The notes below the pieces were generated by a model. It was not told the DNA's origin. It did not search any database and saw only the letters and a list, made by a program, of their open reading frames with translations. From a virus, in IMG/VR virus record IMGVR_UViG_3300042509_002530, positions 1 to 29,431 of that record: DNA of 29,431 nt. One strand, 5' to 3'. This document shows positions 6,298 through 27,365 of the stretch, one piece after another; positions within the stretch are counted from its first letter, which is position 1; each line of letters begins with the position of its first letter. Both the position numbers and the translations under genes were made by a program.

Positions 6298-7031
6298 GGC
6301 GTTTGCGGAACTTGAAATTCTCCGAAATCTATGGGATTCGGCATAATTGAAAATGTTGCGCTTGACTCAATAATATCGCCAAAGTTTCGGTATTCATAGG
6401 AATTCCCCTGCGCAAACGCAATCGTTGGAGTCAAAGGAAGGGGGGCATGGTTTCCAGACCACTCTGGAGTTATTCCTGGGAATATTTGGCTGACCGTGAA
6501 GGTGGCACCTTTTAGAGAGGCGCCGGCGGCTATTGTGCCGATACTTCCGATCCCTAAAATTTTAAATTCATCATCATCCGCCGGAGTGGAAATAGTTGAC
6601 GGAGAACTTTTCAGAAAAGGCTTTACGAATTTTTTGTTGGTTATTAAGACAGAAAAAGTTTTTCCGTCGTCTACATAATTAAATGGAGGATTAGCGTCGG
6701 GGTATCTCTTTGTGACTCGAAAAAGTAAGGTCGTTACAGAAAAATTGAGCTCTGTCAGAGTCTGGACCCCCGCTTTGCCAGGCACAATGCCATAAGCCGA
6801 AACGACGGCGGATTGCAGGCCGTTGCCGAGGTCGCGGTATTCTGGCACGCCGTAAACTTTGGCTCCGGTGTCTGCGTCGTCGCCAGGGAACGGGTCGCCC
6901 TCGGTGGCCACCAAGCCATTTTCGGAAATGCTGCCGATAAATTCCTGCTGGATCAAAACGAGCCCGCTGCTCCATGAACGCGTGATGCGGCCGGGCTGCG
7001 GGATCCAATCGTTGATGGCGCTGTAAATCAT
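6294..7031 (-). CDS. Putative distal tail protein
   Basis: A 245-residue protein directly downstream of the tape measure gene with an ATGA overlap, the place normally taken by distal tail or tail-tip proteins of siphophages. The sequence is beta-rich with no enzyme motif: it opens MIYSAINDWIPQPGRITRSW, has a central VLITNKKFVKPFLKSSPSTI and ends in a Phe/Pro-rich tail. The second half of the gene is much richer in A and T than the tape measure. I do not recognise a family. Position supports a hub or adaptor joining tape measure and fibres. Confidence 0.7.
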   Translation of the reverse strand: MIYSAINDWIPQPGRITRSWSSGLVLIQQEFIGSISENGLVATEGDPFPGDDADTGAKVYGVPEYRDLGNGLQSAVVSAYGIVPGKAGVQTLTELNFSVTTLLFRVTKRYPDANPPFNYVDDGKTFSVLITNKKFVKPFLKSSPSTISTPADDDEFKILGIGSIGTIAAGASLKGATFTVSQIFPGITPEWSGNHAPLPLTPTIAFAQGNSYEYRNFGDIIESSATFSIMPNPIDFGEFQVPQTP

Positions 7032-9775
7032 GTCAGGACAGGGCTGGGGAGCTTGTTGCTCAGGGTGGTGAGGAGGGTTTTGATGTCGGTGACGAGGCCG
7101 GTGAGGCCGCCTTGGGCGTTGCCGCCACCGCCGGAGGTGGCGCCGGAGAGGTCGAGTTTGATGGGCTTCTCGAGTTCGGCGCGGATGTTTTTGATTGCGT
7201 CGCTGGCATCGAGGGTGAGCTTTTGGGCGGTGCTGGTGAATCGATCGAGGGAGGTTTTGAGCGGGGCGGTGTCGGCGTCGAGGGGGACTTTGGCGGTCTT
7301 GGTGGAGAGGTCGGCGATCTTTTTCTCGGCGGTGGTCGTGTCGGCGTCGGCGGTGATGGTGGCTTTTTTGCCGTTCGCGTTGAGGATAGCGGTGAGGGCG
7401 TCTTTGGCGGTTTCGGCGTCTTTTAGATTTAAGGTTTCCAGAATGAGGTTGGTGCGCTTTTCGCCGACGAGGCCGTCAAGTTGGTTTTGGAACGCATCCA
7501 TGGACTCAAATCCCTGGGATTTCAGGAGGAGCTTAGTCTCTTTTGTTAGGCCGACAGAATCGAGTTTGCGGACGGCGCGATCGAAATCCTCCTCGCCGGT
7601 GATCTGCATGGCGAGTTGGCGCTGCGACTCGGTGGGAATGCCTTGGAGGTTAGCTAAAACTTCTTCGATGCTACTCGCGCCGATCGCCGTAAAAGCGGCC
7701 TGATAATTTTTGTTAATTTGCTCCATGTTCTGGAGCGTGGCAAAGGCATCTTTGAGGTTGTCCTTGCCGGTGACTTCGAGGGCGACGGCGATGGCTTTCG
7801 GGTTGGAGTTTGCGGAGATTTCGGCGAGGAGGTCTTTCCACCGGGTGTCGTCCACCGTGGTGGTGACCGTAACGACGACATTCTTGTTGCCGATCGCTTC
7901 GGCGGCGTTTTTGGCGTTGACGAAATTGGTGGCGAGGCGGGCGGCTTCGTCGGCATTCACGCCGAGCTTGGTCTTGTATTCCTCGGTGAGCTTGGCGATT
8001 TCCTGCTGGCCTTCGAGTTGTTGCTTTTCGCTTTCGAGCGTTTTGACCAATTCCTCGTTCCCGGCGGCTTTGGCTTCGTTGATGGCGGTCTCGAGTTCGA
8101 CCAGCGCGGCGGCGTTGGCTCTCTCGGTGGCGGCGGCGGCTTCGGCTTCGGCGCGGATTTCGGCGCGCTTGGCGAGTTCGGCTTCGGTTTGAGCGGTGGT
8201 GGCGGCGCGTTGTTCGTTTGTGGCGGCGACTCGCGTAGCGATTTCGGCCTCAATGTCGGCGACCTTTTGGGCCTGTTCTCCGGTATTGAAAAACTCGGTG
8301 TTTGCTTCGGAGAGGTTTTCTTTAAAACGATCGACGCTCCCCGCGAGATTGGTGCCGATGTCTTCGGCAGCGAGTTCGGCGGCGATGGGGATGCGTTGGA
8401 GGGCGAGTTCGGCGGAGGTGGCTCCGGCCTCGGCGCTCTGTTTTAGGCTCTCGGCCATGCCGGAAAACATTGGCCCCATGCCTGCAAAAGTGTCGGCGAG
8501 AGACCCAGCGACTTTTTCTTTCACATATCCGGCGACGAAATCGAAAGCCGACTTGATGACCATGAGCGTGGGGCCATCAGAGCGGAAAACATTGGCGATG
8601 ATTTCGGCGACGGTATCAAAGGCGGCAGAGAAAATGTTGATGATCGAGTTGCCGGTCTGCATGACCTGGAGCTTTGCGGACTCGAAGAAGGCTTTGAAGG
8701 CGAGGCTGATTTCGCCGACCGAGATGGCATCCACGGCGGACTGAAAGCCTTTCATGGCTTGCTGACCGCCGAGGAAGGAATTGGCGAGGTCTTGGCCGAT
8801 CTTGGCGGCGTCGATACGGGAGAGGGCCGAGGTGATGGCGTCGATCGCGGGGAGGGCTTTGTCGAGGATACCTGCGGCGAAGTCTCGGACTTTTTCTCCG
8901 ATGGTTTTGAAGCGGTCGCCGACGGCGTCGAAGACCGAGGAGCGGCGGTCCATGATCTCGGCCATGGAGCCGACGGTGTCGCGGGCTTCGCCGAGTTCGC
9001 CGTCGAGATTGGTGAGGAGGGGCAGGAGTTCGGCGCCGCTCTTGCCAAAGACTCCCATGGCGGCGGCTGCGCGCTGGGTGGGGTCGTCGATCGATTGGAT
9101 GCCGGAGGAGAGGATTTTGAACTGCTCGGTGGGGAGCTTGCCTTCGAGTTCTTCGACCCTCACGCCCATCATGGCGAAGGCGCTGGCAGCCGTGCCGGAG
9201 CCATCGCGGGCGTCCTCGATGTTCTTCTGCATTTTTGCAATCGAGCTGCCGACTTTGTCCGCGCCGATGCCGGAATTGTCGAACGCACGCTCGAGGACGA
9301 GGAGCTTGCCTGCGGTCTCGCCGGTGGAGGCGGAGAGGTCGGAGAGGCGGCCGCCGAGGTCGAGGGCGTCAGTGAAGCCTTGGATCGTGCCACGCACGGC
9401 GGCGAAGGCGGAATCGAGGACGGCGGTGAAGGCTTTGGCGGCGATTTGGCCGAGGCCAACGGCGGCGACGAGCTTTCCAAATCCCATGCCGCTCTGCTCG
9501 CCCATTTTCTCGCTCTTGTTTCCGGCGTCTTGGATGTCCTTGCCAAGTTCGCCGACTTTGGGGGCCGCGCCTGCGGACTCATTGCCGATCGCTTGGAGTT
9601 GCTTCTCGAGGCGCTCGACTTGGCCGAGGCGCTTCATGGTGGATTCCAATTCCTCGAAGGAGAGTTCGCCGCTTTTTACCTTCCCCTCGAGGGTCTGCAT
9701 CTCGCTTTGGATTTTCTTCAGGCTGTCTTGCAGCCCGACATCCTTGGCGCCGAATTCTACTGAGACATCGGCCAT
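7028..9775 (-). CDS. Tape measure protein
   Basis: At 915 residues this is the longest protein of the window and has the typical build of a phage tail length determinant. The helical start (FEELESTMKRLGQVERLEKQ, residues 40-59) is followed by a hydrophobic segment at about 98-135. Next comes a core typical of the family (LGGRLSDLSASTGETAGKLL, then SGAELLPLL), more hydrophobic helices, and a long charged coiled coil (about 505-610) rich in Ala, Glu and Arg. The C-terminus is Gly-rich and then helical. It lies downstream of the G/GT chaperone genes, as in lambda-like phages. At the usual 1.5 angstrom per residue it predicts a tail of roughly 137 nm. No lysozyme or peptidase domain is apparent. 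Confidence 0.92.
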   Translation of the reverse strand: MADVSVEFGAKDVGLQDSLKKIQSEMQTLEGKVKSGELSFEELESTMKRLGQVERLEKQLQAIGNESAGAAPKVGELGKDIQDAGNKSEKMGEQSGMGFGKLVAAVGLGQIAAKAFTAVLDSAFAAVRGTIQGFTDALDLGGRLSDLSASTGETAGKLLVLERAFDNSGIGADKVGSSIAKMQKNIEDARDGSGTAASAFAMMGVRVEELEGKLPTEQFKILSSGIQSIDDPTQRAAAAMGVFGKSGAELLPLLTNLDGELGEARDTVGSMAEIMDRRSSVFDAVGDRFKTIGEKVRDFAAGILDKALPAIDAITSALSRIDAAKIGQDLANSFLGGQQAMKGFQSAVDAISVGEISLAFKAFFESAKLQVMQTGNSIINIFSAAFDTVAEIIANVFRSDGPTLMVIKSAFDFVAGYVKEKVAGSLADTFAGMGPMFSGMAESLKQSAEAGATSAELALQRIPIAAELAAEDIGTNLAGSVDRFKENLSEANTEFFNTGEQAQKVADIEAEIATRVAATNEQRAATTAQTEAELAKRAEIRAEAEAAAATERANAAALVELETAINEAKAAGNEELVKTLESEKQQLEGQQEIAKLTEEYKTKLGVNADEAARLATNFVNAKNAAEAIGNKNVVVTVTTTVDDTRWKDLLAEISANSNPKAIAVALEVTGKDNLKDAFATLQNMEQINKNYQAAFTAIGASSIEEVLANLQGIPTESQRQLAMQITGEEDFDRAVRKLDSVGLTKETKLLLKSQGFESMDAFQNQLDGLVGEKRTNLILETLNLKDAETAKDALTAILNANGKKATITADADTTTAEKKIADLSTKTAKVPLDADTAPLKTSLDRFTSTAQKLTLDASDAIKNIRAELEKPIKLDLSGATSGGGGNAQGGLTGLVTDIKTLLTTLSNKLPSPVLT

Positions 9776-9778
9776 GGC

Positions 9779-10576
9779 TTACGCGGCCTCCTGGAGTTTG
9801 AGTTTTCTCTTTTTCAAAATCGTCTCCATTTGCTTTTTCATTTTCTGCGCGACGAAAGCCATGCCGTTGAGTTGCTCAGTGAGGCGGAGGACGCTGTCGG
9901 CCCATGGAAGGGAGTTGGTGAGCGTGACGGTGGGGGCGAAGATGTTGCTGGTGTTGTCCTGCACGGAGCCGGTGCCGGGCTTGTTGCGGAGCCACCACTT
10001 CTCGAAATCGTAGGTCTGTGAGCGCGAAATGACTTTCTTGAGCTTCAACGCGCACTCAGCCCAGCCTGCTTTGGCGAGGCCGACTTTTTGCTGGCGCTCT
10101 TTGATGTAGTTAAAGAGCGAGGTGGAATCAGCCCCGAGGTAGAATTTCTGCGGGCGCTTGAATGTGCGGCCGGTCCGAGGATTTCGGTTGTCTCGGTGGA
10201 TGCCTGCGTAGTCGCCGGACTCCACCACCGTGAATGCCTCGGACCCCATGCCGACTGCGGCGAGGGTGGATTTGAGCCCAGTCCAATTCCTGGCTTGGAA
10301 ATTCTTGGTGAGGCTTTTTTTCAAACGCTCGCTCTGCGTTTTCCCGAGGAATTGCAGAAAGTAGACCGGCGGCTTGATGATGTTCGAGATGTCCTTCCGC
10401 ACGCGCTCGGTGCCGACTTTTTCATCTTTACCGAAAGCCTGCGTGCGGCGGGCAAATTCGACACACAGGAGACGAGCATTCAAGTGGACTGCGTCGGGAA
10501 TGGTTTTCCCTTGGATCTCGGCGTAGTCTTTCATGATCTGCTCGAACTTGAGGTTTTCTAATTTGATTTTGGGCAT
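9779..10576 (-). CDS. Hypothetical tail-assembly protein between chaperone and tape measure
   Basis: A 265-residue, strongly basic protein (MPKIKLENLKFEQIMKDYAE start; the C-terminus ends in KKRKLKLQE). It contains helical stretches, an aromatic central region (RTFKRPQKFYLGADSTSLFNYIKERQ), and KVISRSQTYDFEKWWLRNKPG further on. I do not recognise the family. It starts one base after the stop of the frameshifted chaperone extension and ends three bases before the tape measure start. This is an unusual position, since in lambda-type tails the tape measure follows directly. Its coupling to both suggests a tail-assembly or minor tail role. Confidence 0.75.
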   Translation of the reverse strand: MPKIKLENLKFEQIMKDYAEIQGKTIPDAVHLNARLLCVEFARRTQAFGKDEKVGTERVRKDISNIIKPPVYFLQFLGKTQSERLKKSLTKNFQARNWTGLKSTLAAVGMGSEAFTVVESGDYAGIHRDNRNPRTGRTFKRPQKFYLGADSTSLFNYIKERQQKVGLAKAGWAECALKLKKVISRSQTYDFEKWWLRNKPGTGSVQDNTSNIFAPTVTLTNSLPWADSVLRLTEQLNGMAFVAQKMKKQMETILKKRKLKLQEAA

Positions 10577-10577
10577 C

Positions 10578-11212
10578 TCAGGTCAGGTTCTCGAAAGCTG
10601 CTTCTATCGCAGCGAGGGAGTCAAAATCGGTCGCTCGGTTGTTGCGGCCCCAGACTCGTTTGCGCCCGTGCGCGAAGTCGTCGGCGTGGAGTATTTGAAG
10701 GCCCGCCGCGAACGGCAGGTCTTCGAGGATTTCGCGGAAGCCCCAGCCGGTGGTCTTGGCGATGCGGTAGACATAGCTCGCGAGCCAGCCGGGGCTGTTT
10801 AGTTTCCCGACGAATCCTTCGCGCCGGGTTGGCTGGAGTAGCTGGCGAAGTATTCGTTGGTGCGCTCAAGGCAAAGGCTTTGGAGGTCGGCGATCTCTTG
10901 GGCGCTCGGAGATTGTTTTTCCATCCAGTCATCGACGGCAGCGGCGAAGCGGGGGAAGTCGTTCACGACGGCGCGGACGCTGGCTTTGGGCGCTCCGTGG
11001 ATGAAGCCGAAGCCGGAGGCGCGCCACATGATGTCCATGTCGGTCGTGAGGATTTTGTTGCGCTGCATCCAGGAGATTTCCAGAGCGGCGGTGGGGCGGA
11101 GTTCCCAGCGCGAGAGCTTCTGCGGGCCGCCGGTCATGGCTTGCTCGCGGAGGACTTCGTCGTCGGTGAGGAGGTCGGTGTCGGTGGTGGTGGGTTGGGT
11201 TTGTTTTTTCAT
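10578..11212 (-). CDS. Tail assembly chaperone, -1 frameshift fusion (lambda gpGT-like)
   Basis: If ribosomes slip back one base on GGGAAAC at 10808-10802, the reading frame continues past the TAA for 74 more codons to a TGA at 10580-10578, giving about 211 residues. The added part reads LNSPGWLASYVYRIAKTTGW and on through EILEDLPFAAGLQILHADDF to AAFENLT. It looks like genuine protein, has no start codon of its own near the junction, and fills the gap of 222 bases left between two genes. The next gene starts one base after this stop. In lambda the same arrangement yields gpG and gpGT, the T part recruiting tail tube protein. The frame and stops were read directly; slippage itself is inferred. 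Confidence 0.82.
10799..11212 (-). CDS. Tail assembly chaperone, short form (lambda gpG-like)
   Basis: A 137-residue soluble, acidic and helical protein (MKKQTQPTTTDTDLLTDDEV start). Similarity to lambda gpG is not visible by eye; the call rests on gene order, size and the frameshift signal at its end. The last codons are GGA-AAC-TAA, preceded by G, forming the slippery heptamer GGGAAAC right at the stop. The gene lies between the tube proteins and the tape measure, exactly where siphophages carry the chaperone that coats the tape measure protein before tube assembly. The start has an A-rich leader without a Shine-Dalgarno site. Confidence 0.8.
   Translation of the reverse strand: MKKQTQPTTTDTDLLTDDEVLREQAMTGGPQKLSRWELRPTAALEISWMQRNKILTTDMDIMWRASGFGFIHGAPKASVRAVVNDFPRFAAAVDDWMEKQSPSAQEIADLQSLCLERTNEYFASYSSQPGAKDSSGN
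10802..10808 (-). promoter_or_regulatory. Slippery heptamer GGGAAAC for -1 frameshifting
   Basis: In the zero frame it reads G-GGA-AAC followed at once by the TAA stop. It is an X-XXY-YYZ heptamer and differs from the lambda G/GT site GGGAAAG only at the last base. A GC-rich stretch with the palindrome GCTCGCGAGC follows shortly after and could pause the ribosome. Confidence 0.82.
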
Positions 11213-11224
11213 GGTTTTTTGTTT

Positions 11225-11614
11225 CTAGAAAAGTTTGGAGAATTTGCGTCGGGTCTCTTCGTCGGCGTTCTCAGAGAGGTAGAGGATTTTGCCGTTGCGC
11301 TTGAGCTCGAGGACGCGGGGGGTGCTTTTGTGGACATCGATCCAGGTCTCGCGGTTCACGAATCCGGCGCGGATGTAATTCACCGGATGCTCGGGGTCGG
11401 ACTCTTCGAGTTCGGCGTGGCCTTTGGTCATCCAAAAAATGACTTTCGAGGCGCGGAGGCCGTTCGGGCCGTTCTCTTCAAACCAGAAGGAGGATGTCTC
11501 CTTGCCGTCTTCGCGGTGGACTCGCACGCATGGCGAGGATTCTTTGTGCTTGAAGCCGAGCGTGGTGAGGGCCGCAGCGGCTTTGATGTTTTGCGTGTAG
11601 GTGTATTTTTCCAT
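11225..11614 (-). CDS. Hypothetical protein in the tail module
   Basis: A 129-residue charged protein (MEKYTYTQNIKAAAALTTLG start; EETRRKFSKLF end). The centre (FWFEENGPNGLRASKVIFWM) has aromatic-rich beta-like strands. It has no membrane segment and no recognised motif. It follows a rho-independent terminator placed after the tube gene, so it needs readthrough or its own promoter, and it precedes the chaperone gene by 12 bases. The position would suit a tail protein or regulatory protein. The start ATG at 11614 is preceded by ACAATAAA rather than a Shine-Dalgarno site. Confidence 0.7.
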   Translation of the reverse strand: MEKYTYTQNIKAAAALTTLGFKHKESSPCVRVHREDGKETSSFWFEENGPNGLRASKVIFWMTKGHAELEESDPEHPVNYIRAGFVNRETWIDVHKSTPRVLELKRNGKILYLSENADEETRRKFSKLF

Positions 11615-11627
11615 TTTATTGTCTCGT

Positions 11628-11659
11628 AAAAAATCGGCTCCCTATTGTGCCGGGGAGCC
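11628..11659 (-). terminator. Rho-independent terminator after the second tube-like gene
   Basis: On the minus strand GGCTCCC pairs perfectly with GGGAGCC around a ten-base loop and is followed by GATTTTTT. It lies 20 bases downstream of the stop at 11679 and 14 bases before the start at 11614. It should reduce transcription of chaperone and tape measure genes relative to tube protein. Confidence 0.85.
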
Positions 11660-11678
11660 TGTCGGCGGGCGTGGTGGG

Positions 11679-12041
11679 CTAGGACAAAACGGTGTCGTAT
11701 TGCGTCATGGAAATATCCACGGAAGCGAATCCTTCGGAGGTGAGGTTTTGGGTCACGCTGTCTACGAGGATCGTGCCAGAGAGAGCGCCTGCGCCGGTAT
11801 TTACAAGCGAGCTGATCTTGTCGCCGACATCAGGGACGGCGGTGCCGATGCCGTTGATCGAAATCGTGGCTTTTTTCCCGTAGCGGTGTGAGTGCTCGAG
11901 TTCGCCGTCGGTGTTGAAAATCTCGGCTTTGTCGCTGGTGACATCGTAGCTGTAGGACTGGATCAAAATATTGAGAGCGGACTCGTCTTGGATTCCGAAA
12001 TCAGCAGTGATTCCGCTGGCGGCGTAGAATTGTGCGGGCAT
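11679..12041 (-). CDS. Tail tube-like protein 2
   Basis: A 120-residue beta-rich protein (MPAQFYAASGITADFGIQDE start). It aligns by eye with the product of the gene just upstream: both have an SD.SDKAE/SDTSAKQE segment, a following DGE or NGE turn, a central aromatic residue with KK or KR and a (T/V)(I)SI(N/S)G(I/V)G strand. Both end with a (VD/ID)...S.(EG/DG)FA strand and a final TQ-containing strand. Tandem genes of this size between the head-tail joining genes and the chaperone are expected to code tail tube subunits. The following strong terminator fits a highly expressed structural gene. Which of the two copies is the main tube protein cannot be told. Confidence 0.72.
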   Translation of the reverse strand: MPAQFYAASGITADFGIQDESALNILIQSYSYDVTSDKAEIFNTDGELEHSHRYGKKATISINGIGTAVPDVGDKISSLVNTGAGALSGTILVDSVTQNLTSEGFASVDISMTQYDTVLS

Positions 12042-12046
12042 AAAAA

Positions 12047-12358
12047 TTAGTCTTGGGTTGCTGTGATTTGGAATTCCGCGAATCCGTCGATGGATCGGGA
12101 GGTGGAGATTTGGTCGATCGTAAAGGATCCAGATACACCGGGCATGCTGCCGAGGGCACCGCCGACAGCGAGAGAGCCTGCATCGCCGACGCCGGAAATG
12201 GAGACCTCGCGTTTGAATTTGTTGTAGCCGACAGCGGCGTATTCGCCGTTCGCGCCACGGAGTTCTTGTTTTGCGGAGGTGTCGGAGATCGTGACCGCAT
12301 TAACGATCATCGATCCTGCGTTCCCGCCTGTGATTCCGAAGGTGTAGGTTGCTGGCAT
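12047..12358 (-). CDS. Tail tube-like protein 1
   Basis: From the ATG at 12358 the protein has 103 residues (MPATYTFGITGGNAGSMIVN); the open frame extends further upstream but that part is out of frame with the preceding gene and has the low-complexity look of non-coding translation. The protein is beta-rich and similar to the 120-residue neighbour (shared KREVSISGVGDAG / KKATISINGIGTA strand and closing IDGFAEFQITATQ / SEGFASVDISMTQ). It is short for a tube protein (lambda gpV is 246 residues), so both copies may contribute to the tube, or one may form the tail-terminator-proximal ring. The leader contains TTTGACA 27 bases before the ATG. Confidence 0.75.
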   Translation of the reverse strand: MPATYTFGITGGNAGSMIVNAVTISDTSAKQELRGANGEYAAVGYNKFKREVSISGVGDAGSLAVGGALGSMPGVSGSFTIDQISTSRSIDGFAEFQITATQD

Positions 12359-12387
12359 AGGTGGTGGATTTCTTTGAGGTGGGGCTG

Positions 12388-12780
12388 TCAAATTTCGGCG
12401 ATGCCGAGGACGAGGGTGGCGCTGCAAACCCAGCGCGAATCGGACTGCGATTCCGTGAGTCCGGTCAAAACCGCGCCGGCAAATGCGATGCCCTCGAAGT
12501 GCGTGGCGAGGGATGAGAGATTGCGGAGTGCCGTGCGGAGTGCGGAAGTGAGCTGCTGGTGCTGATCGATCTCCAGGTGCGACGGAGTAGCGAGGACGAT
12601 GGAGGCCGTGGCGCGTGAGAGCGTGCCGCCGATGATCTCGACATTCTCGCACCCGGCAAAAAGGACCGAGCAGTCGGCTGGGATCGTCTCGGCGCTCTGG
12701 CCGGTGTGGACGGGGATGCCGTCAAAGGCTGGCTGGCTGCGGAGCCATGCGGCGAGGGAGGACTCGACGGGGATGTTCAC
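12388..12780 (-). CDS. Putative tail terminator or tail completion protein
   Basis: A 130-residue protein starting at a GTG (12780) within a GTGA overlap. It opens MNIPVESSLAAWLRSQPAFD, then has a beta-strand and helix mix (CSVLFAGCENVEIIGGTLSR; LTSALRTALRNLSSLATHFE) and a final strand WVCSATLVLGIAEI. This size, the opening helix and the alternating alpha/beta pattern match tail completion proteins of the lambda gpU / HK97 gp10 type, and the gene lies between a head-tail joining gene and the tube genes, where such proteins are coded. No direct family recognition was possible; the call is by position and shape. Confidence 0.6.
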   Translation of the reverse strand: MNIPVESSLAAWLRSQPAFDGIPVHTGQSAETIPADCSVLFAGCENVEIIGGTLSRATASIVLATPSHLEIDQHQQLTSALRTALRNLSSLATHFEGIAFAGAVLTGLTESQSDSRWVCSATLVLGIAEI

Positions 12781-25795: not shown

Positions 25796-27166
25796 TTATT
25801 CTTGTCCTTCCATTGTAAAAAGTTCCTCTATCAAAATTCGAAAAGCTCTCTCGGCTGTGGCAGGCACGACTCCGTTGCCGAGGAGTCGCAGTTCGTCGGT
25901 TCGATTGTCACAGGTGACGCACAGCTCGGCATAACCCATCCAATCGGCAGGCCCATCAGCGTCTCCACCCAGCGCGGATTGAGCTTCCCCGTTTGCGTCC
26001 TCTCCACCATCGGAGTCAATTCCTTGTATTCCCGCTCCTCGTTGCCCCTGCCGCTCTTGTGGTCGCGGGCTGTTGGTGTTCCCCAGCAAGCCTGCTCGTT
26101 CAGATTCTTCACGCCATGGCCCTTGGCCCTCATCGCTTCGATCTGCTCCGGTGTCTTCGGGCCTTGGGCATCGTGGGCTTGAGGCGTTGCCCAGTTGCCC
26201 CCCTTCACCTGCTCCTCCAGCACCTTCCCGCCAGTCCCTGGCGCTCGACTGCCTGGGCATCCCGCCCTCGGTGTTGCCCACGACTCTTGGCGGCTCCCAT
26301 CCGTGCTGGGGTTCGCCGGGGCGGCTTGGCCATGCTTGACGGCATCCGAAAGTTTTGCTCCGTAAGCTACCGGATTCTCCTCTTTGTGGTTGTGATAACT
26401 GACCGCCCTTCCATCTATCCATTCCGTCTTGTAGCTGCCGCCCGTTGTGTCCATGACGGCTGGCGTCGGCCAATTCGCCGCATCCTTCACCCTCGCAGTT
26501 TGGGCATCCGTATTTTCCAAGCAATTCGTGGTCGAATTCGTAGCCACAAAACTGGCATGGCCTTCTGCAATCATCATCGCCATCGTTCCAAGCGGAATCG
26601 AATTGCGATGCTCCTGCGATTTGCCAACCGAGTTCTTTGACTCGTTGACGCTGATCGTAGGCCAAGATAAAGACGCGCTTTCTCTGGTGCGGTGCGCCGA
26701 CTTCAGCCGCGCTGAATATTCCCCACGCCGTTGAATAACCAATTTGTTCCAACTCTCCAACGACCTCTCGGAGTCCGAGGGAGATGTGTCCTTCGACATT
26801 CTCGAAATAGCAGAGTCGGGGGCGAAGAAGTCGAATTCCGTCTGCGATGAAAGGCCAGAGGTGCCGAGGGTCTTCTGTGCCGAGCCGCTTTCCGGCTGCG
26901 CTGAATGGCTGGCAGGGATAGCCCCCAGTGAGGATGTCCACGCGGTCACGAAACTCTGCCCATGGGAAGGATTTAAGATTCGTCCAGATAGGTGCTGCGT
27001 CCATGAGTCCCGCTTCCATTTTGCTGACCAAGTTCGCGCAGGCGAAGGCTTCGATCTCACAAAGAGCGACCGTGCGCAGATTTCGGATAACTCGGTGGAG
27101 TCCAAGCTCAATGCCGCCGTATCCGGCACAAAGGCCGAGGTGTGTAATTGTTTTGGGAGTATCCAC
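25796..27166 (-). CDS. DNA cytosine-5 methyltransferase
   Basis: A 456-residue C5 methyltransferase that must start at the GTG at 27166, since motif I lies only ten residues in. Motifs appear in order: I LGLCAGYGGIELGL (10-23), IV GGYPCQPFS with the catalytic Cys85, VI FENVEGH (121-127), VIII QRKRVFILAY (161-170) and X LLGNGVVPATAERAF (428-442). Between VIII and X lies a target-recognition region with a zinc-ribbon-like CQFCGYEFD...GCPNC (Cys204, 207, 221, 224) and three LADA/LGN(T/A) units. The enzyme probably methylates the phage genome against host restriction. A second long frame runs over nearly the whole gene (see the overlapping entry). The first codons overlap an ATG of that frame. 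Confidence 0.92.
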   Translation of the reverse strand: MDTPKTITHLGLCAGYGGIELGLHRVIRNLRTVALCEIEAFACANLVSKMEAGLMDAAPIWTNLKSFPWAEFRDRVDILTGGYPCQPFSAAGKRLGTEDPRHLWPFIADGIRLLRPRLCYFENVEGHISLGLREVVGELEQIGYSTAWGIFSAAEVGAPHQRKRVFILAYDQRQRVKELGWQIAGASQFDSAWNDGDDDCRRPCQFCGYEFDHELLGKYGCPNCEGEGCGELADASRHGHNGRQLQDGMDRWKGGQLSQPQRGESGSLRSKTFGCRQAWPSRPGEPQHGWEPPRVVGNTEGGMPRQSSARDWREGAGGAGEGGQLGNASSPRCPRPEDTGADRSDEGQGPWREESERAGLLGNTNSPRPQERQGQRGAGIQGIDSDGGEDANGEAQSALGGDADGPADWMGYAELCVTCDNRTDELRLLGNGVVPATAERAFRILIEELFTMEGQE

Positions 27167-27168
27167 AT
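25831..27168 (-). CDS. Second long frame overprinting the methyltransferase gene
   Basis: In the +1 frame relative to the methyltransferase an ATG at 27168, placed TAATG-wise on the preceding stop, opens 445 codons (MWILPKQLHTSAFVPDTAAL). The product has repeated WPTP/WATP/WGTP units, e.g. NWPTPAVMDTTGG, NWATPQAHD and CWGTPTARDHKSGRG, and ends with NPRWVETLMGLPIGWVMPSC. From memory, phage proteins starting MW.LPK and carrying WPTP.A.D repeats with WVE.LMG.P.GW are common database entries and resemble target-recognition parts of methyltransferases. This could be true dual coding, or those entries could be the shadow of such methyltransferase genes, since the LADA/LGNT units of the other frame produce WPTP. 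Confidence 0.4.
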   Translation of the reverse strand: MWILPKQLHTSAFVPDTAALSLDSTELSEICARSLFVRSKPSPARTWSAKWKRDSWTQHLSGRILNPSHGQSFVTAWTSSLGAIPASHSAQPESGSAQKTLGTSGLSSQTEFDFFAPDSAISRMSKDTSPSDSERSLESWNKLVIQRRGEYSARLKSAHRTRESASLSWPTISVNESKNSVGKSQEHRNSIPLGTMAMMIAEGHASFVATNSTTNCLENTDAQTARVKDAANWPTPAVMDTTGGSYKTEWIDGRAVSYHNHKEENPVAYGAKLSDAVKHGQAAPANPSTDGSRQESWATPRAGCPGSRAPGTGGKVLEEQVKGGNWATPQAHDAQGPKTPEQIEAMRAKGHGVKNLNEQACWGTPTARDHKSGRGNEEREYKELTPMVERTQTGKLNPRWVETLMGLPIGWVMPSCASPVTIEPTNCDSSATESCLPQPRELFEF

Positions 27169-27365
27169 TATTTCTTTCCCTTCATAGTGTTTGCATTGCG
27201 CTCGATGTATTTCCGCACGCGCTCCATGTCCGCCTCCGCCACCGCCTGCTCGGCTAGCGAGTAAGTGTGCCGGTAGTTCGGCAGCGGCTCCGCCCGTTGA
27301 ATGCGCGGCCCGATCGGGCAGTCGTTCAGACAAATGGAGATGCGGAGGGAGAGGTCTTGGGTCAT
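27168..27365 (-). CDS. Hypothetical small protein
   Basis: A 65-residue protein (MTQDLSLRISICLNDCPIGP start), starting in an ATGA overlap with the HTH gene upstream and ending in a TAATG junction with the overlapping methyltransferase frames. The second half (YSLAEQAVAEADMERVRKYI, then ERNANTMKGKK) is a charged helix. Two cysteines lie close together near the start (C-x3-C). No family is recognised. Confidence 0.65.
   Translation of the reverse strand: MTQDLSLRISICLNDCPIGPRIQRAEPLPNYRHTYSLAEQAVAEADMERVRKYIERNANTMKGKK

Follow-up and report, generated by a model that had tools for sequence, protein, structure and literature searches.

A probable G/GT-type programmed -1 frameshift in a phage protein family without Pfam or PHROG match

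The sequence analyzed here, referred to as the window, comprises all 29,431 nucleotides of positions 1 to 29,431 of the IMG/VR virus record IMGVR_UViG_3300042509_002530. The feature under study lies entirely on the minus strand, as read directly from the window; the initial annotation of this DNA had not given the strand. A zero-frame ORF (10799..11212), a candidate G-like tail assembly chaperone gene with homologous zero-frame ORFs in related sequences, encodes 137 amino acids and ends in ...KDSSGN (GAT TCG TCG GGA AAC TAA). Its end contains the slippery heptamer G_GGA_AAC (10802..10808), an X_XXY_YYZ motif in zero-frame register, and the TAA stop codon (10799..10801) follows immediately 3' of it. 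The T-like -1 frame, counted from the AAA of the heptamer to a TGA codon (10578..10805), provides 74 sense codons past the heptamer. Its open stretch starts at 10865 and closes with the TGA at 10580..10578; a single base separates that codon from the ATG (at 10576) of a gene encoding 265 amino acids (9779..10576, minus strand), a neighbor outside the signal itself. Beyond it lies the tape measure protein gene (7028..9775, minus strand), which matches PHROG tape measure families (best E 4.6e-12). No ATG, GTG, TTG, CTG or ATT codon occurs in the -1 frame of the window from the upstream stop to 60 nt beyond the heptamer. Direct reading and this start-codon scan confirmed the layout that had been reported initially, namely a 137-codon gene ending in G-GGA-AAC-TAA and a second frame of 74 sense codons, with no start nearby, that fills the gap to one base short of the next ATG.

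An open -1 frame by itself is weak evidence, because 12% of mononucleotide shuffles of the same stretch are also stop-free. The evidence that argues for frameshifting comes from relatives, in the form of a conserved heptamer, a protein-like substitution pattern and a covarying stem. Relatives were collected by IMG/VR searches that used three profiles as well as the short protein and the -1 peptide as queries, together with one scan of GTDB genomes, and the loci were collapsed to 126 distinct sequences around the site, two of which are contigs of MAGs labelled Verrucomicrobia (L170 and L171). All 126 carry a shift-prone heptamer immediately 5' of the zero-frame stop, which may be TAA, TGA or TAG and is displaced in none of them, and their -1 frame is open and conserved throughout. 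The two observations that had been proposed as refuting the frameshift, relatives without the heptamer and relatives with stops in the second frame, were each made in 0 of 126 sequences. The heptamers comprise GGGAAAC (74), CCCAAAC (15), GGGGGAG (15), GGGAAAG (14) and AAAAAAC (8). The strict X_XXY_YYZ pattern is thus found in 111 relatives, the other 15 having the non-canonical GGGGGAG with its misfit at the second codon, and AAC is the second heptamer codon in 97 of 126. Among the 74 sequences with GGGAAAC, the stop is TAA in 63, TGA in 8 and TAG in 3. The -1 peptides share 53-83% identity with that of the window (21 relatives, alignment A5), and the zero-frame proteins, which have an S/G/A/T-rich tail ahead of the junction, are more divergent (28-76%, alignment A4). 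When one relative (L189) is compared with window positions 10799-11212, the first 26 residues are identical and a different middle follows, which makes the zero-frame gene a mosaic.

When stem and heptamer were left out of the data for a parsimony tree, at least 12 heptamer changes were placed on it, each landing on another shift-prone heptamer, and seven of them are GGG/CCC exchanges that take three substitutions each; the stop changed among TAA, TAG and TGA at least nine times. These counts are approximate, given a tree drawn from 111 nt and visible recombination. More distant relatives were matched in 8 of 388 Verrucomicrobiota genomes searched. In two of them CCCAAAC is not directly followed by the stop: L329 has one codon and then TAG, and in L331 the stop lies five codons on. 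Zero distance between heptamer and stop is therefore a property of the subfamily to which the window belongs. Three other distant loci in Verrucomicrobiota genomes (L333, L334 and L335) have A runs at the junction of the two frames, possibly reflecting polymerase slippage or another shift mode, and the frame relation in L335 looks like +1/-2 rather than -1. One Verrucomicrobia MAG (G001, the genome of L170) contains two divergent G/T modules, on contigs C79 and C46 (L327 and L329).

The substitution pattern was followed in five reference groups of 8-29 distinct sequences each, some of them overlapping. In all five, variation peaks at zero-frame third bases as far as the heptamer and, right after it, at -1-frame third bases, a pattern that spans the whole 200 nt downstream. 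The reading frame in which the protein sequence is selected therefore switches at the heptamer. In none of the 126 relatives does the -1 frame contain an ATG, GTG or TTG codon within 30 nt upstream of the heptamer or from there up to a conserved Trp, and 86 of the 126 lack these codons anywhere in the open -1 stretch. The window thus has the second frame under protein-level selection, lacking a start of its own, that is expected of a G/GT-type gene.

Folding of the RNA downstream of the heptamer, a check suggested in the initial annotation, produced a strong stem-loop that covaries in the relatives. It occupies 10739..10796 on the minus strand (5' arm 10796..10785, 3' arm 10750..10739), with 12 bp and a 34-nt loop, and begins 5 nt after the heptamer, with 6 nt to the first G-C pair, within the 5-9 nt range at which downstream structures of -1 frameshift signals are placed. 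The 70 nt after the stop fold with an MFE of -30.2 kcal/mol (z -2.65), and z ranges from -2.3 to -6.3 in the relatives. Pairing is kept in 94% of cells across 106 distinct sequences; in a 30-sequence subset 94.2% of cells are paired, versus 25-60% with slid partners. The covariation score of this subset was reached by 0 of 500 shuffles, a comparison in which kinship alone can beat the shuffles without any structure. Because related sequences can do so, the synonymous evidence matters more than the shuffle score. Where a Gly codon GGC in the 5' arm has become Asn AAC, its Gly partner in the 3' arm has changed synonymously from GGC to GGT in 39 of 66 sequences, versus 1 of 40 otherwise, although GGT makes up 6% of Gly codons in the genome of the window; another 26 of these 66 retain an A-C mismatch at this position. 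At another synonymous third position, C13 occurs together with G68 in 14 of 18 cases, and full GC/CG swaps occur at two further stem pairs. A search of Rfam gave no match. Upstream of the heptamer, anti-SD pairing peaks at about 15 nt and is no higher than in synonymous shuffles, and the Shine-Dalgarno-like purine tract found there, a possible stimulator, cannot be told apart from an effect of amino-acid composition.

Gene order in the relatives consists of two small genes, a gene of about 129 amino acids, G/T, a gene of about 200-280 amino acids and the tape measure gene. The two small upstream genes are presumed, from position only, to encode the tail tube, which would place G/T between tail tube genes and the tape measure. 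In the window, the minus-strand region 11225-12352 includes the adjacent small genes 11679-12041 and the 3' part of 12047-12652, which are tail-tube-like by position; neither 11679-12041 nor the conserved 129-amino-acid gene (11225-11614) matched any Pfam or PHROG family. Many relatives have, between T and the tape measure, a homologue of the 265-amino-acid gene of the window; it is swapped for dissimilar genes of about 200 amino acids in L012, L026 and L229, and is missing in L233, where the tape measure gene follows T almost directly. An intervening gene of about 200-280 amino acids, considered unusual at first, is consequently the rule in this phage group, L233 excepted. The end of T coincides with a module boundary. 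Synteny with tail genes and the tape measure supports a tail-chaperone role, and the position and two-product design fit a G/GT tail assembly chaperone, a function assigned from context because the searches found no sequence or structural match to a known chaperone.

Elsewhere in the window, two long ORFs on the minus strand (25796-27166 and 25831-27333) overlap by 1.3 kb in different frames. The former matches the methyltransferase families PF00145 (3.5e-31) and phrog_363 (2.9e-53), and the latter the methyltransferase family phrog_1008 (1.7e-21). One possibility is dual coding, another a PHROG family derived in part from an alternate frame.

Searches of Pfam and PHROG with both products and 22 relatives of each returned chance-level matches only, and tblastn of the two products against 50,697 phage records gave either nothing or one match at E = 10. 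Comparison with the lambda gpG and gpT families by hhalign yielded E values of 0.4 and 0.35, at which homology is not detected. The description "lambda-style" therefore holds for the mechanism and is not backed as a statement of homology; neither protein is detectably related by sequence to lambda gpG or gpT, and neither is assigned to those families. AlphaFold modelled the short form with a confident core (mean pLDDT 79), for which Foldseek found nothing in the PDB and no annotated match; its sole find was an uncharacterised phage protein (A0A6J5S158, TM 0.62, E 0.022). The model of the T domain was poor (pLDDT 64, pTM 0.25). Verrucomicrobia phage P8625 gp18, considered as an in-frame fusion of G and T, was rejected for want of significant similarity. 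We take the locus to be a programmed -1 frameshift of the G/GT type whose protein family neither Pfam nor PHROG recognizes.

The shift site itself is well precedented. GGGAAAC is a published g-t shift site (PMC5009743; PMC3556154), and the tail assembly chaperone genes gp116/gp117 of Caulobacter phage CcrColossus are annotated with a programmed frameshift at this heptamer (PMC3556154). CcrColossus resembles the window in having the stop directly after the heptamer (GGGAAAC-TGA), predicted stem-loops downstream and a location just upstream of the tape measure. It differs in its short protein, which has no detectable similarity to that of the window, in its predicted stems, and in the tape measure coming directly next, with no intervening gene. 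The adjacency of slippery site and stop, regarded initially as unusual, accordingly has a precedent there. PRFect gives mean heptamer-stop distances of 26 nt for SEA-PHAGES genomes and 36 nt for the Xu phages (PMC10885494). In lambda gpG/gpGT, too, the -1 shift occurs close to the end of a gene some 140 codons long, flanked by the major tail gene on one side and the tape measure on the other. Comparison with the lambda sequence bore out that its heptamer, GGGAAAG, is one base from that of the window, and 14 relatives have exactly GGGAAAG. In contrast to the window, lambda has 15 nt between the heptamer and the G stop, no sequence similarity in gpG or gpT, and no gene between T and the tape measure gene, which overlap directly. 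The g-t genes of the haloarchaeal viruses HCTV-1, HCTV-2 and HCTV-5, whose hosts are archaea, are also among the closest known systems. Given CcrColossus and the other published g-t sites, the heptamer, its position and its role are all precedented; long-tailed phages ordinarily use this mechanism.

Several other routes to the second product, or to its absence, were weighed. Termination at TAA followed by re-initiation would account for a stop and a second ORF lying side by side, as in translationally coupled genes; it is nevertheless very unlikely, as the start codons it would use are missing near the junction in all 126 relatives and from the entire open stretch in 86, and it leaves the conserved heptamer and stem unexplained. 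Slightly less probable still is an untranslated -1 stretch, be it the remnant of a gene, the result of a sequencing error that shifts the frame, or a frame left open by chance. The shuffles show that a frame of this length stays open by chance in 12% of cases, and the -1 peptide has no Pfam or PHROG family match, but the same junction is common to 126 distinct sequences, none of which has an in-frame stop, and substitutions track -1 codon positions throughout.

Two further explanations accept the longer product and assign it another origin. RNA polymerase slippage, which would create indels in the transcript, draws on the long A runs at the matching place in the distant Verrucomicrobiota loci L333, L334 and L335, yet the heptamer of the window contains no homopolymer longer than three, GGGAAAC, CCCAAAC and GGGAAAG are kept in codon register, and a spaced, covarying stem fits ribosomal frameshifting; we give this explanation as little credence as an untranslated stretch. 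Readthrough of the zero-frame stop, stimulated by the stem, is the least probable of all: the zero frame does remain open for about 65 codons past the stop in some relatives, but in others (the CCCAAAC group) it meets stops 13-25 codons on, and selection tracks the -1 frame, not the zero frame.

The preferred reading, with a probability of about 0.92, is that a single tail assembly chaperone gene of the G/GT type, expressed by frameshifting, consists of the ORF 11212..10799 together with the open -1 frame that runs to 10578, and the 126 relatives, covarying stem and synteny support the programmed -1 frameshift put forward in the initial annotation. Sequence data show the heptamer and its conservation, selection acting on the -1 frame, a covarying stem and the synteny, whereas the occurrence and rate of slippage, a stimulating effect of the stem and the role as a chaperone are inferred. 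Most ribosomes would terminate at TAA and release the 137-amino-acid short protein. A fraction would slip back one base on G_GGA_AAC, with tRNA-Gly moving from GGA to GGG and tRNA-Asn from AAC to AAA, probably aided by the 12-bp stem-loop 5-6 nt downstream. Slipped ribosomes would then read CTA-AAC-AGC-CCC... and produce a predicted fusion of about 211 amino acids, with the 74-residue -1 product as its second domain. Tail assembly requires the short and long forms of G/GT-type chaperones in a set ratio. If lambda gpG/gpGT is a guide, the short form may coat the tape measure protein and the fusion may recruit tail-tube subunits.

Points against this reading are the AAC second codon, the 15 relatives with GGGGGAG and the lack of similarity to any known tail chaperone. 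With regard to the first, slippage in E. coli is lower on second codons that mix purine and pyrimidine, AAC among them, than on AAR (PMC4066793). A speculative and rather unlikely extension holds that the stop locked to the heptamer is part of the signal: with the stop in the A site, release factors would compete with slippage, and the short-to-long ratio would depend on host termination, offsetting the poorly slipping AAC. Zero distance is found in all 126 family members and in CcrColossus, but not in L329 and L331. In HIV-1 experiments with a stop placed right after the slippery site, the release factor was able to decode this stop before slippage (PMC4373837).

The locus offers a solid instance of G/GT-type recoding in Verrucomicrobia-linked phages. 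The protein family is missed by current libraries, so that both halves of the gene would be left unannotated or split. Five heptamers and a covarying stem within one gene family, mostly with AAC as the second codon, constitute a natural panel with which the contributions of heptamer, stem and adjacent stop to the rate of frameshifting could usefully be tested. As the mechanism is already known, the general interest is moderate, and the prevalence of a second codon on which E. coli ribosomes slip less readily adds a modest point of interest.
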